From an uncultured Pelagibacteraceae bacterium (GTDB lineage Bacteria; Pseudomonadota; Alphaproteobacteria; Pelagibacterales; Pelagibacteraceae), in contig CACGGD010000001.1 in the NCBI GenBank assembly GCA_902572605.1, positions 283,861-347,860 of the forward strand: a stretch of DNA of 64,000 nucleotides, read 5' to 3'. Below are positions 7,042 through 30,276 of this stretch, one piece after another. Within the stretch, counting starts at the first letter, position 1. Every line of letters begins with the position of its first letter. Made by a program: the position numbers and the translations under genes. The notes under the pieces were generated by a model. The model was not told the origin of the DNA and searched no databases. It worked only from the letters and a program-made list of their open reading frames with translations.

Positions 7042-8607
7042 ATGTTTAAAAGAGTTTTTCAATTAATTAAAATTGCAAGAAAATTATCTACATCTGGTGC
7101 TATAGATACAATTAATCAGATATATAATTTACCTTTAGCAATTATTCTTTTCTTTAATCTTATCTCAATTGGATCACAAAAAAAAATATTAAATAATCAA
7201 AAACAGCCTGGAGAAAAACTTTGTTTAGCCCTAGAAGGAATGGGTACTACTTTCATTAAACTCGGTCAGTTTCTTGCGACAAGACCAGACATTATTGGTG
7301 AAGAGCTGGCAAAAAATTTAGAAAAGTTGCAAGATAAACTACCTGCGTTTGATACAAGTGAAGCAAAAAAAATAATAAATAAAGAAATTGGAGATAAGCA
7401 GTTTAAAAATATATTGGAACTTAGCGAACCTATCGCAGCTGCTTCTATTGCTCAAGTACATATAGCAAAGATCAAAAATGAAAATGAAAATAAACAAGTT
7501 GCAGTTAAAATTTTAAGACCAAATATAGAAAAATTATTTAATGAAGAATTAGATGCTTTGATGTTATTTGCTTATATAGTTGAAAATTTATTTTCAAAGG
7601 CAAAAAGGCTTAAGCTAGTTGAGATAGTTTATTTATTACGTGAAATCACAAATATTGAAATGGACTTACGATTTGAAGCTGCTGCTGCAAATGAATTATA
7701 TGAAAATACAAAAAATGATAAAGGTTTTAATGTCCCCAAAATTTACTGGAATTATACAACTAAAAAAGTCCTTACATTAGACAAGGTAGAAGGAATATCT
7801 ATTCGGGAGCATGAAAAGCTTAAAAAGTTAGGAATTGATTTAAAAAATTTAGCTGAAAATCTTATACAGCACTTTTTAAAACAAGCTGTAAGAGATGGAT
7901 TTTTTCATGGGGATATGCATCAAGGAAATTTATTTGTGGATGAACAAGGAAATATTATACCTGTAGATTTTGGTATTATGGGGAGATTAGATAAAAACAA
8001 CAGAAAGTTTTTAGCAGAAATTTTGTACGGCTTTATTCAAAGAGACTACGTTAAAGTAGCAGAAGTACATTTTCAAGCAGGTCTTGTTCCAGAAGATGCT
8101 TCCAAAGAAGAATTTGCCCAAGCATTAAGATCAGTTGGAGAACCTATCTTTGGTCAATCAATTAAAGATATTTCTGGAGGAAATTTATTAGCTCAGCTTT
8201 TTGAAATCACAGAAAAATTTAATATGCCTACACAAACACCTTTGCTAATCTTGCAAAAAACCATGGTAGTTGTTGAAGGTGTTGCGAGAAAATTGTATCC
8301 AGAAACTAATATCTGGGAAGTTTCTAGACCTGTTTTAGAAGATTGGTTAAAAAATATTAAAAGTCCAAAGTCTACCTTAGATATGGCTATGAATACCTCT
8401 GCGGAGATAATAAAAAGAATACCAGATTTTCCAGATTTAATGGATAAAGCCAATTATGCTCTTCAATTAATGACAGAAGGAAAACTAAATTTAGGGTTAA
8501 GAAATAACAAAAATCTAGAGATAGAACAAATGAAGTTAAAGAATCTCAGAAACAATTTAATAATTGGTTTTTTTGGTATTGTAATTTTTGGTCTATTAGT
8601 ATTTTAA
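7042..8607 (+). CDS. ubiB: UbiB/ADCK-family ubiquinone biosynthesis ATPase
   Basis: Atypical protein-kinase-like ATPase needed for ubiquinone synthesis; it does not act as a classical protein kinase. The family-specific KxGQ motif appears in FIKLGQFLATRPD (about residues 72-84), the alanine-rich nucleotide loop in AAASIAQVH, and the catalytic and metal-binding motifs in HGDMHQGNLFV and PVDFGIMGRL. The C-terminal hydrophobic stretch (about 500-521) is the expected membrane anchor. It starts immediately after the ubiE stop codon. Confidence 0.95.
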   Translation: MFKRVFQLIKIARKLSTSGAIDTINQIYNLPLAIILFFNLISIGSQKKILNNQKQPGEKLCLALEGMGTTFIKLGQFLATRPDIIGEELAKNLEKLQDKLPAFDTSEAKKIINKEIGDKQFKNILELSEPIAAASIAQVHIAKIKNENENKQVAVKILRPNIEKLFNEELDALMLFAYIVENLFSKAKRLKLVEIVYLLREITNIEMDLRFEAAAANELYENTKNDKGFNVPKIYWNYTTKKVLTLDKVEGISIREHEKLKKLGIDLKNLAENLIQHFLKQAVRDGFFHGDMHQGNLFVDEQGNIIPVDFGIMGRLDKNNRKFLAEILYGFIQRDYVKVAEVHFQAGLVPEDASKEEFAQALRSVGEPIFGQSIKDISGGNLLAQLFEITEKFNMPTQTPLLILQKTMVVVEGVARKLYPETNIWEVSRPVLEDWLKNIKSPKSTLDMAMNTSAEIIKRIPDFPDLMDKANYALQLMTEGKLNLGLRNNKNLEIEQMKLKNLRNNLIIGFFGIVIFGLLVF

Positions 8608-8614
8608 TTACATA

Positions 8615-9844
8615 ATGTCATTAAAAAATAAAAAAATTTTAATAGTAGTTGGAGGTGGTATATCTGCTTACAAATCTCTTGATCTTATACGACTATTAAA
8701 AAAAAATAATGTTGATGTAAAAACTATTTTAACTAAAAGTGGTAAAGAATTTGTTACTCCTCTTTCAATTACGACATTGACAAAAAATAGAACCTTCGAA
8801 GATATTTTTGATAAAAATGGAGAAGCTGAAATAGATCATATAGCTTTATCTAGATGGGCAGACTTAATTATTGTTTTACCCACTACAGCAAACTTTATGA
8901 CAAAGTTGAGCATAGGTAAGGCAGAGGATTTAGCTACAACGGTATTGCTAGCCTCGAATAAAGATATTCTTTTAGTACCGGCTATGAATGTCAGAATGTG
9001 GCTTCATAAAGCTACGCAAAGAAACATAAAAACTTTACAAGATTTTGGTTATCATTTTATTGGCCCAGAAAAAGGAGAAATGGCTTGTGGTGAGTATGGA
9101 GAGGGAAAGATGTCAAGTCCAAGACAAATTTACACTTACTTAAAAAATTATTTTGATAATAAGAACCTGGTTAAAAACAAAAATTTTAAAGCTTTAGTTA
9201 CCTCAGGTCCAACTAGAGAATATTTGGATCCTATAAGATATATTTCAAATGAATCGAGTGGAAAACAAGGATATGAAATCGCTTTAGCATTAAAAAGACT
9301 GGGTATAAAAACAAAGCTAATCACTGGACCATCTAATCTTGTTTTTTCTAAAGATTTGATAATTAAAAAAATAATTTCTGCTAAAGAAATGCTGAGCGAA
9401 GTAAAAAAATCTCTACCTGTTGACATAGCTGTTTGTGCAGCTGCGGTCTCTGACTTTAAGCCAATTAATAAAAGTAAAAACAAAATTAAAAAAAATTATA
9501 CTAATATTGACAACTTAAGTTTAGAGAAAAATCCTGACATTTTAGATTATTTAAGTAAAAATAATAAATATAGACCTAAAATAGTAATTGGGTTTTCTGC
9601 TGAAACTGAAAATGTTATTAAAAATTCGAAAATAAAAATTAAGGAGAAATACTGTGACTTAATTGTTGCAAATGATGTTTCCAAAAAAGATACAGGATTA
9701 AATTCCGAGTATAATAAAGTCTCAATAATTGATAAAAAAGGTAAAATTAAATCAATTCCGAAAAATAAAAAAAGTTATATTGCTAATACAATTGCTAAAA
9801 TTATATTAGATAAACTTTTGATAAATGATAAAAATATTAATTAA
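8615..9844 (+). CDS. coaBC: Bifunctional phosphopantothenoylcysteine decarboxylase/synthetase
   Basis: Catalyses two consecutive steps of coenzyme A synthesis: ligation of cysteine to 4'-phosphopantothenate (CoaB) and flavin-dependent decarboxylation (CoaC). The N-terminal CoaC half shows GGGISAYKSLDL, the LPTTANFMTKL and PAMNVRMW motifs and ACGEYGEGKM around the active cysteine. The C-terminal CoaB half shows TSGPTREYLDPIRYISN and EKNPDIL. Length (409 residues) is normal. Its 3' end overlaps dut by 20 bases in another frame, so the two are likely coupled. Confidence 0.95.
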   Translation: MSLKNKKILIVVGGGISAYKSLDLIRLLKKNNVDVKTILTKSGKEFVTPLSITTLTKNRTFEDIFDKNGEAEIDHIALSRWADLIIVLPTTANFMTKLSIGKAEDLATTVLLASNKDILLVPAMNVRMWLHKATQRNIKTLQDFGYHFIGPEKGEMACGEYGEGKMSSPRQIYTYLKNYFDNKNLVKNKNFKALVTSGPTREYLDPIRYISNESSGKQGYEIALALKRLGIKTKLITGPSNLVFSKDLIIKKIISAKEMLSEVKKSLPVDIAVCAAAVSDFKPINKSKNKIKKNYTNIDNLSLEKNPDILDYLSKNNKYRPKIVIGFSAETENVIKNSKIKIKEKYCDLIVANDVSKKDTGLNSEYNKVSIIDKKGKIKSIPKNKKSYIANTIAKIILDKLLINDKNIN

Positions 9845-11964: not shown

Positions 11965-14127
<2,163 letters not shown>

Positions 14128-14152
14128 TTATGTAAGAAAGTAATTATTCTAG

Positions 14153-14181
14153 TTTATAATTATTCTAAACTAGTAAGTCAA
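14153..14181 (-). promoter_or_regulatory. katG promoter with embedded Irr-type (ICE) operator
   Basis: On the minus strand TTGACT (14176-14181) is followed after exactly 17 bases by TATAAA (14153-14158), a good housekeeping promoter about 32 bases from the katG ATG. The spacer and -10 contain TTTAGAATAATTATAAA (14153-14169), which matches the Irr iron control element TTTAGAA-N3-TTCTAAA with one mismatch. A slightly longer 23-base near-palindrome spans 14150-14172. A repressor bound here would block the promoter. The sequence is seen; regulation by Irr is inferred from the adjacent irr gene. Confidence 0.72.
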
Positions 14182-14189
14182 TATGAAAT

Positions 14190-14603
14190 TTATTTCTTTT
14201 GTAAACTGATTACAACCTCGAGGTCTTTAATCTTTTTTCCTTTAGGTGGATTAGGAATTTTCTTTAAAATAACTTCTTGATAATCAATATCAGTAAGTTT
14301 TTTTGTTTCTGGATCGTAAAAATGGTGGTGCGACTTAATGTTCGTATCGTAATAACTTTTGCTGTTGTTAGTTAAAATTTCTCTAATGTGTCCAGCCTTC
14401 TTAAAAGCTTCAACTGTATTATAAATTGTAGCTAAAGAAATTTTTGTCTGTCCTTTTCTATTAACAACTTTATTTAATGTTTCAGCTGTAAAATGAAAAG
14501 TTTCTTTTTTATCAAACAATTTCTTAGCTATTAAAATTCTTTGTTTGGTTGGTCTAAGGTTAGAAGATCTTAATTTATTTATAATTTCTTTTTTTTGGTG
14601 CAT
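14190..14603 (-). CDS. irr: Irr-type Fur-family iron/haem-response regulator
   Basis: Fur-superfamily DNA-binding protein (137 residues from the ATG at 14603; an upstream TTG at 14609 is less likely). The winged helix contains LRPTKQRILIAKKLF and SLATIYNTVEAFKKAGHIRE. The C-terminal half carries the triple-histidine SHHHFYD typical of Irr. There are no cysteines, which argues against PerR or zinc-site Fur/Zur. Divergent irr and fabA is a recurrent alphaproteobacterial arrangement and supports the call. Irr normally represses haem- and iron-using genes when haem is scarce; the katG gene immediately downstream carries a matching operator. Confidence 0.83.
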   Translation of the reverse strand: MHQKKEIINKLRSSNLRPTKQRILIAKKLFDKKETFHFTAETLNKVVNRKGQTKISLATIYNTVEAFKKAGHIREILTNNSKSYYDTNIKSHHHFYDPETKKLTDIDYQEVILKKIPNPPKGKKIKDLEVVISLQKK

Positions 14604-14694: not shown

Positions 14695-15198
14695 ATGCAA
14701 AAAAATAGTTTTAATTATGAAGAATTAATTGCCTGCGGCAATGGAGAATTGTTTGGTGAGGGTAATGCTAAGCTTCCTTTACCACCGATGTTAATGTTCG
14801 ACAGAATTACTGAAATTAAAAAAGATATAGGTGAATTTAAAAAAGGTTTTATTAAAGCAGAGCTAGATATAAAAGATAATCTCTGGTTTTTTGATTGCCA
14901 TTTTAAAAATGATCCGGTTATGCCAGGTTGTCTAGGACTAGATGCGATGTGGCAGTTAGTTGGTTTTTATTTGGGGTGGATTGGAGAGCCGGGAAAAGGA
15001 AGAGCGCTGGGTGTAAATACTGTAAAATTTACTGGAGAAGTCCTAAAAAAAGCCAAAATGGCAACTTATGAAATTAATATGAAAAGAATTTTAAAAAAAG
15101 AAGGTGCTGTAGTTGGTCTTGCTAATGGTATATTGAGTGCAGATGGAAAGATAATTTATAAAGCTGAAAATTTAAAAGTAGGATTATTTAAATCATGA
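14695..15198 (+). CDS. fabA: 3-hydroxydecanoyl-ACP dehydratase/isomerase
   Basis: Introduces the double bond in unsaturated fatty acid synthesis by dehydrating 3-hydroxydecanoyl-ACP and isomerising the product. [22 protein letters not shown] (written here only as its landmarks: catalytic His in DCHF and Asp in GLDAMWQ) is the hot-dog fold active site. Length (167 residues) is typical. fabB overlaps its stop by 4 bases (ATGA), and fabI follows directly, forming a complete short operon divergent from irr. Confidence 0.96.
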
Positions 15199-29850: not shown

Positions 29851-30276
29851 TTATTTTTTTATTTTTGAACCGTATAATTCTAATTTATGATCCACAAGTT
29901 TATAACCCAATCTTTTAGCTACTGCGTCTTGTAGTTTTTCTATATCTTTATCAACAAATTCTACTACCTCTCCACTATTAATATCTATTAAATGATCATG
30001 ATGTTCGTCGGGTGACTGTTCGTATCTTGCTTTGCCACCTTTAAAATCATGCTTCTCTACAATACCAAATTCTTCGAACAATTTCACAGTTCTGTAGACT
30101 GTTGCAATGCTAATCTTGTTATCAATCTCAGTAACTCTTTTATGTAATTCATCAACATCAGGATGGTCTTTAGCGCCATACTTAACTTTTGAGTCCGACA
30201 TAACTTGAGCTATAATCTTCCTTTGGTCAGTTAGCCTAACACCTTTTAATTTACATTTTTCTTCTATTGCATTCAT
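29851..30276 (-). CDS. fur: Fur/Mur-family metal-responsive regulator
   Basis: Second Fur-superfamily regulator in the window (141 residues). The winged helix contains RLTDQRKIIAQVM and SIATVYRTVKLFEEFGIVEKHDF; the metal and dimer domain contains DEHHDHLIDINSGEVVEFVD, the classic Fur/Mur His cluster. In alphaproteobacteria orthologues at this fur-miaB-phoH locus often sense manganese (Mur) rather than iron. It lies 9 bases after tsaB; rimI, which often lies between them, is absent. Confidence 0.9.
   Translation of the reverse strand: MNAIEEKCKLKGVRLTDQRKIIAQVMSDSKVKYGAKDHPDVDELHKRVTEIDNKISIATVYRTVKLFEEFGIVEKHDFKGGKARYEQSPDEHHDHLIDINSGEVVEFVDKDIEKLQDAVAKRLGYKLVDHKLELYGSKIKK

Follow-up and report, generated by a model that had tools for sequence, protein, structure and literature searches.

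The locus described here lies in a window of 64 kb (the whole stretch of DNA that was analysed) from a 909-kb, 82% complete SAR11 assembly (G000), and consists of katG, which codes for a catalase-peroxidase, irr, which codes for a Fur-superfamily regulator of the Irr/IrrA type, and fabA, a divergently oriented gene next to irr by which the locus can be recognised. The 718-residue product of katG (11965-14121, minus strand) scores 1126.5 bits with NCBIfam TIGR00198 (cut-off 770.25); irr (14190-14603, 137 residues) is upstream on the same strand, and 68 bp separate its end at 14190 from the katG ATG at 14121. On the far side of irr, fabA (14695-15198, plus strand; TIGR01749, 258.5 bits) and two more fab-type genes diverge from it. 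A Fur-type paralogue, which has to be considered as a rival reader of the operator, is encoded on the minus strand at 29872-30246 (coordinates of the domain match, PF01475, 127.2 bits; G000:C1:313732-314106 in the assembly) and is one of three FUR-domain matches there.

The product of irr contains the FUR domain (PF01475, 62.1 bits, cut-off 23.1) and the SHHHFY motif and has no cysteine, in agreement with the first-pass annotation; the best of nine models for it is NCBIfam IrrA (NF045678), at 143.9 bits, under the cut-off of 150. That cut-off is passed in 97 of the 190 genomes of a class sample, and the protein of a relative with irr next to rubrerythrin (G002) scores 146.3 bits. Five residues, H37, D86, H92, H94 and D105, align with the five regulatory metal ligands of PerR and are invariant in 63/63 sequences from the genus, 5/5 from the sister family f2 and 32/32 others from the class. 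The HHH (HXH) putative haem-binding motif is formed by H92-H94, of which H92 and H94 are present in 63/63 genus and 32/32 class sequences and H93 in 30/32 of the latter. The window protein lacks the PerR-type Cys4 structural zinc site, having no cysteine, and also the Cys haem regulatory motif of the Bradyrhizobium type, which is known only in a subset of Irr proteins. No relatives of irr were found in a viral collection.

Upstream of katG the minus strand reads TTGACT-TACTAGTTTAGAATAAT-TATAAA, with 17 nt between a -35-like hexamer (14176-14181) and a -10-like hexamer (14153-14158). The latter lies within TTTAGAATAATTATAAA (14153-14169, minus strand), the core of a predicted Irr operator, which is one mismatch away from the Irr consensus TTTAGAA-N3-TTCTAAA, used here as in the first-pass annotation. 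Reading of the sequence therefore upholds the earlier description of a promoter of this form that contains an Irr-like element, except that the near-palindrome around the core spans 25 bp (14149-14173; 11 of 12 arm pairs) and not 23 bp. This consensus occurs without mismatch in three irr-rubrerythrin promoters of the class (L237, L239 and L250). Taken from the single window, the operator is weak and unremarkable against chance: two 25-bp palindromes in which no more than one of the 12 arm pairs fails to match are present in the 64 kb against 1.03 expected, and 0.47 one-mismatch matches to the consensus are expected per 64 kb. The only other palindrome of this quality in the window is at 8602-8626. 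The relaxed consensus is not enriched in the assembly, where two or fewer mismatches are allowed by 67 sites against 120 for a reversed control. Of the 67, 62 have two mismatches and five have at most one; among these five the katG site alone lies outside reading frames, the other four being inside. The katG promoter is itself only consensus-like; a promoter scan, which demands T at the last base and does not have TTGACT/TATAAA among its hits, returned 12 promoter-like sites against 11.1 in shuffles, no excess. A tandem second site downstream, TAGAATAATTA (about 14142-14151), was considered and rejected, as it is not retained in near relatives.

It is conservation in relatives that lifts the predicted operator far above chance. 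In all, 150 relatives were searched, 74 with katG and 138 with an Irr-like match, matches at E < 1e-20 being taken as Irr and weaker ones as other Fur-type proteins. The genus is represented by 91 genomes, of which 69 have katG, 63 irr and 59 both. Conservation of the palindrome in relatives that carry irr and katG had been named in the first-pass annotation as a point on which the proposal could fall, and the proposal withstood it, both here and in the family sample described below; all 59 katG upstream regions from genomes with both genes were read, and the box is found at one mismatch in 58. In the exception, G054, irr adjoins katG and the best box has four mismatches. Among 48 boxed sites (from 49 of the 59 upstream regions) 13 of 17 columns are invariant and three more are kept in 45-47 of 48; the middle base varies freely, the next two bases past the core (CT) are kept in 47 of 48, and most outer columns are variable. 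Choosing the aligned sites for their similarity to the consensus biases the alignment towards the core, but this does not affect its sharp edge or the CT beyond it. Shortly before the box, TTGA is found in 22 of 58 loci and CTTG in 35 of 58 (overlapping pattern counts). The TATAAA sequence is conserved too, as would follow from its place within the operator, and its function as a -10 element is putative.

Several further features of these loci were seen. In 20 of the 58 loci (for example, L063 1928-1955) the end of the operator is 8 nt from the katG ATG, and katG transcripts from these loci would have no leader if TATAAA serves as the -10 element; AGGA/GGAG sequences resembling a Shine-Dalgarno element occur in six of 51 katG upstream regions. 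Loci with the type-B irr defined below (L276, L279) carry a conserved TTGACAGTTTGTCGCTTG, with the inverted repeat GACA-N3-TGTC, just past the irr stop and upstream of the operator, possibly the site of a second regulator or a -35 region. In G030 and G018 (L203, L204) a near-identical irr-katG promoter precedes katG types that are 92% and 70% identical to that of the window, and katG alleles seem to have been exchanged behind one promoter. That irr and katG tend to be present together in genomes of the genus was not counted as evidence, since 14 of the 18 genomes with neither gene are also without fabB, and much of the pattern is a shared assembly gap. Outside SAR11 the box is rare at katG: among the 80 best-matching loci, grouped by record titles, it is present at up to two mismatches in 3/30 other alphaproteobacterial and 2/45 non-alphaproteobacterial upstream regions.

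Comparison across the SAR11 family shows a predicted operator, its place in the promoter and its dependence on irr. The family sample covers 14 genera (118 genomes, 72 with katG at 1e-100; 70 were read, counting those of the genus set, and two contigs end before the start). In this sample the box is present at up to two mismatches in 98 of 99 katG upstream regions with irr and in 3 of 27 without it (Fisher's test, 2e-21, relatives treated as independent), but the genomes are related and many are incomplete, and the counts are not independent events. The irr-bearing loci added beyond the genus have the box at one mismatch in 23 cases, at up to two in 11 and, in a further six, again at up to two. 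The cases without irr (six in the genus, 9 + 12 in the wider family) are those with no match at 1e-15 or with weak or no matches only, and the boxed ones are G338 (one mismatch, katG facing fabA) and G005 and G060 (two mismatches). These counts omit G045 (katG at a contig edge, a box at one mismatch, irr not found), as well as G001, G053, G059, G358 and G416, in which the katG start is unassembled or broken. The katG of G053 (L198 2443-4570), cut at its start, abuts a piece resembling the DNA polymerase sliding clamp, a join that is probably an assembly artefact.

Judged by gene context, irr seems to have been lost several separate times. The irr slot is empty, with katG adjoining fabA, in G005, G060, G389, G338, G399 and the G333/G378/G403 group, and decayed, box-like remnants are seen in G399 (four mismatches) and G389 (three). 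In genus g12 katG is preceded by other genes. In G003, G023 and G085, probably a single clade, neither irr nor a katG box was found; their katG lies elsewhere, divergent from a LysR-type gene whose best model is OxyR (L195, L196 3993-4088, L197), with scores of 222.8 and 217.6 bits in the two tested, below the cut-off of 329. At 1e-15 four of the 150 relatives have the OxyR-like gene, namely this trio and a distant class member; it was met and in no other same-genus or same-order genome among the 150. In three f2 genomes (G104, G130, G136) irr and katG are on separate contigs, a tRNA-like stretch precedes katG, and the katG upstream region carries a box with one or two mismatches; because the contig lacks irr, the box goes with katG and is not a relic of the irr 3' end. 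In another (G092) irr and katG are adjacent and the box has three mismatches.

In most genomes of the genus that have irr, katG is the gene in the slot next to it. Four of the 91 (G002, G034, G051, G079) are irr-bearing and katG-less, and in these, as in G405, a rubrerythrin gene comes after irr, the five promoters having boxes before and after the -35 element, at one and three mismatches. In the class sample (190 genomes, 152 with an IrrA match, the best 30 loci taken) rubrerythrin lies no more than 700 bp after irr in 26 of the 30 best-scoring loci, and fabA adjoins irr in 10; the irr locus of the window matches this class arrangement in part, with fabA divergent but katG in place of rubrerythrin. 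Rubrerythrin after irr is probably the older, ancestral arrangement. Class rubrerythrin upstream regions (29, from 27 of the 30 loci together with G091 and G147) have a box at up to four mismatches, 1-7 nt before TTGAC, in 23 cases, of which 19 are at up to three mismatches and 18 at a distance of 3 nt; Markov-shuffled upstream regions give a box before TTGAC at a rate of 0.0007. We refer to the box before the -35 element as O1 and to that in the promoter spacer as O2, classes that were read from the sequences by eye with boxes counted at up to three mismatches. In 16 family genomes rubrerythrin has O1 only in five, O1 and O2 in six and O2 only in five, and 16 distant katG promoters with irr have O1 only in two, both in five and O2 only in nine. 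The katG of the window has O2 only. These sequences indicate a shift of the predicted operator into the core of the promoter, at katG and rubrerythrin alike; O2 would be the repressing position, and O1 could act either way. At two irr loci (L175 2777-4501, L178 2611-4406) the gene after rubrerythrin codes for a conserved protein with Fe-S/CCG domains, some 440 residues long (best model GlpC-like, below cut-off), possibly a partner of rubrerythrin.

The irr genes themselves are of two types: the type B promoter is boxed at up to two mismatches in 43/43 cases (37 at one mismatch), and that of type A, the type of the window, in 0/20 at one mismatch and 4/20 at two. An exact 16-mer, TTTAGAAYNATTATAA, matches 91 of the 150 genomes and in the genus is found chiefly at the irr-katG locus. 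A genome-wide Irr regulon was rejected, as the consensus is not enriched and 13 of the 14 same-genus exact 16-mer sites read away from the locus fall inside reading frames. In f2, in which six exact operator sites away from the locus were read (L219-L224; more are present in other f2 genomes), one (L219 1524-1539) lies between a gene for a 1-Cys-type peroxiredoxin and a divergent gene for a metallo-beta-lactamase-fold hydrolase, two (L220 1468-1483, L222 1479-1494) lie before an iron-binding-protein (solute-binding) gene and behind a di-haem oxidoreductase-type gene (family assignments tested in L222 only), one precedes a rhodopsin gene (L221), and two are at or in reading frames (L223, L224). 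A Fur-box-like GATAAT repeat stands beside the operator of L222. The sites before the iron-binding-protein gene suggest that Irr of f2 may also serve iron uptake, so that Irr would not everywhere be a regulator of the peroxide response only.

We propose that Irr directly represses katG through the site described here, a reading to which we assign a probability of about 0.78. With an Irr dimer on the DNA between the -35 and -10 elements of katG, RNA polymerase would be kept off; katG would stay repressed as long as Irr retains its DNA-binding form, and would be expressed once Irr is released or destroyed. Binding and repression alike are predicted from the comparative evidence. The first-pass annotation had gone further and held that Irr represses katG to spare haem. 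Repression is favoured by an Irr operator in the katG promoter beside irr, at a position where a Fur-family dimer on the DNA should stand in the way of RNA polymerase, but haem saving as the purpose of the control is weakened, both by rubrerythrin and by data from Ca. Pelagibacter ubique. Rubrerythrin is a haem-free enzyme, and that the same slot and operator serve it counts against a haem-saving purpose. In L271, which we take to be Ca. P. ubique HTCC1062, rubrerythrin is at 389.7 kb and its promoter has O1 and O2 boxes. A study of this organism in low iron reports a 1.57-fold rise in rubrerythrin mRNA (p 0.025) and no significant change in the Irr protein (PMC2864753). The rise is the opposite of repression by low-haem Irr and so argues against simple low-haem repression; it could be explained by activation from O1 or by Fur acting at a nearby GATAAT element.

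As to the signal that would release Irr from katG, published Irr proteins sense haem, which leads to oxidative degradation in Bradyrhizobium and to loss of DNA binding in R. leguminosarum (PMC7762939, PMC4700492). A haem-linked signal, possibly aided by peroxide as in Bradyrhizobium Irr, has in our estimate an even chance of being the one used. Less probable, yet to be taken seriously, is a mechanism like that of PerR, in which metal-bound Irr represses katG, H2O2 oxidises the ligand histidines and thereby releases Irr, and haem is not the signal. In keeping with this, the five PerR-aligned ligands are invariant in Irr of the genus, of f2 and of the class, the operator of the family governs peroxide scavengers, whether katG or rubrerythrin, the window Irr, free of cysteine, has no Bradyrhizobium-type haem regulatory motif, and in P. 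ubique rubrerythrin mRNA rose in low iron with Irr protein not significantly changed (PMC2864753). However, the PerR-aligned residues are general to Irr proteins (PMC8638967) and are not distinctive here, H92 and H94 of the HHH motif are equally invariant, and the Cys4 zinc site of PerR is missing. Since the HHH motif and the PerR-aligned residues are both general to Irr, the sequence cannot decide between these signals. A signal of some other kind is less probable again.

Our preferred reading, direct repression of katG by Irr, has also to be weighed against other readers and other effects of the site. It is improbable that the site is recognised by Fur (29872-30246) instead of Irr and serves to link katG to iron, even though Fur and Irr boxes have similar AT-rich cores. 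In Magnetospirillum gryphiswaldense Fur binds and represses the katG promoter, as detected by ChIP, and there too a Fur-family protein acts on an alphaproteobacterial katG promoter, but the protein is Fur, not Irr, and the promoter is bound in high iron (PMC3251581). In the SAR11 family, on the other hand, presence of the box tracks irr; irr-less genomes, among them G003, which has no box, and G060, in which the box is weakened, still have weaker Fur-type matches that presumably represent Fur; and the TTTAGAA half-site is that of the irr-rubrerythrin loci across the class. A shade more improbable is that Irr activates katG from the window site. Irr binds Irr boxes near promoters and represses or activates by position, as two reports state (PMC7762939, PMC3413700), and the rubrerythrin box before the -35 element could be an activating position, but the katG site is in the spacer and -10 region, in the window as in the same-genus alignment, where a bound dimer should exclude polymerase. 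That the motif is a mere conserved promoter or chance palindrome with no Irr function, as the roughly one such palindrome expected in the window alone and the box persisting at three irr-less katG genes might suggest, is very improbable in view of the conservation pattern, the absence of the box in 24 of 27 irr-less cases and its two positions relative to the -35 element.

Direct repression of katG by Irr would have parallels in known systems. PerR controls catalase genes in Bacillus and relatives and is likewise a Fur-family repressor at a catalase gene, with five metal ligands; it differs in its Cys4 zinc site, absent from the window Irr, which has an Irr-type box. Many effectors, catalases and peroxidases, are regulated in common by Irr and PerR, according to the discussion section of one report (PMC8638967). 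Control of katG by a neighbouring regulator is also the arrangement of OxyR and katG, found in three same-genus genomes, but that regulator is of the LysR type, and neither irr nor the box was found in those three. The Irr box, or ICE, of rhizobia and Rhodobacter sphaeroides (mbfA, ccpA, bfr) shares with the SAR11 system a Fur-superfamily HXH regulator and a box at promoters of peroxide and iron genes; in R. sphaeroides Irr binds mbfA and ccpA, the latter a haem peroxidase, and irr mutants have more katE mRNA. There, however, Irr affects catalase only indirectly, katE showing no box and no gel shift, (PMC3413700), whereas the SAR11 box is inside the katG promoter. In the portions of the literature accessible to our search, we found no report of an Irr box at katG or of Irr control of SAR11 katG; a 2006 computational study of alphaproteobacterial iron regulons may contain part of this.

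Tentatively, and at somewhat less than even odds, Irr in this SAR11 genus may have shrunk from global control of iron and haem to a one-locus peroxide switch, made up of irr and the scavenger in its slot (katG or rubrerythrin), its operator having shifted from a place ahead of the -35 element into the promoter core, and possibly with direct, PerR-like sensing of peroxide. Among the functions for which some microbes are well known to depend on others is the removal of peroxide in the open ocean. In published reports Ca. P. ubique is described as having no catalase (PMC3033426), and katG as common to most offshore SAR11 genera (PMC12636525). For SAR11 katG, the comparison points to a regulator, an operator and the expected effects of mutations, and natural controls are at hand in irr-less species, in OxyR-linked katG, in rubrerythrin in the katG slot and in operators at two positions. 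What Irr senses in SAR11 thus becomes directly testable, and peroxide defence in these minimal genomes is probably under the control of a regulator that has long been known.
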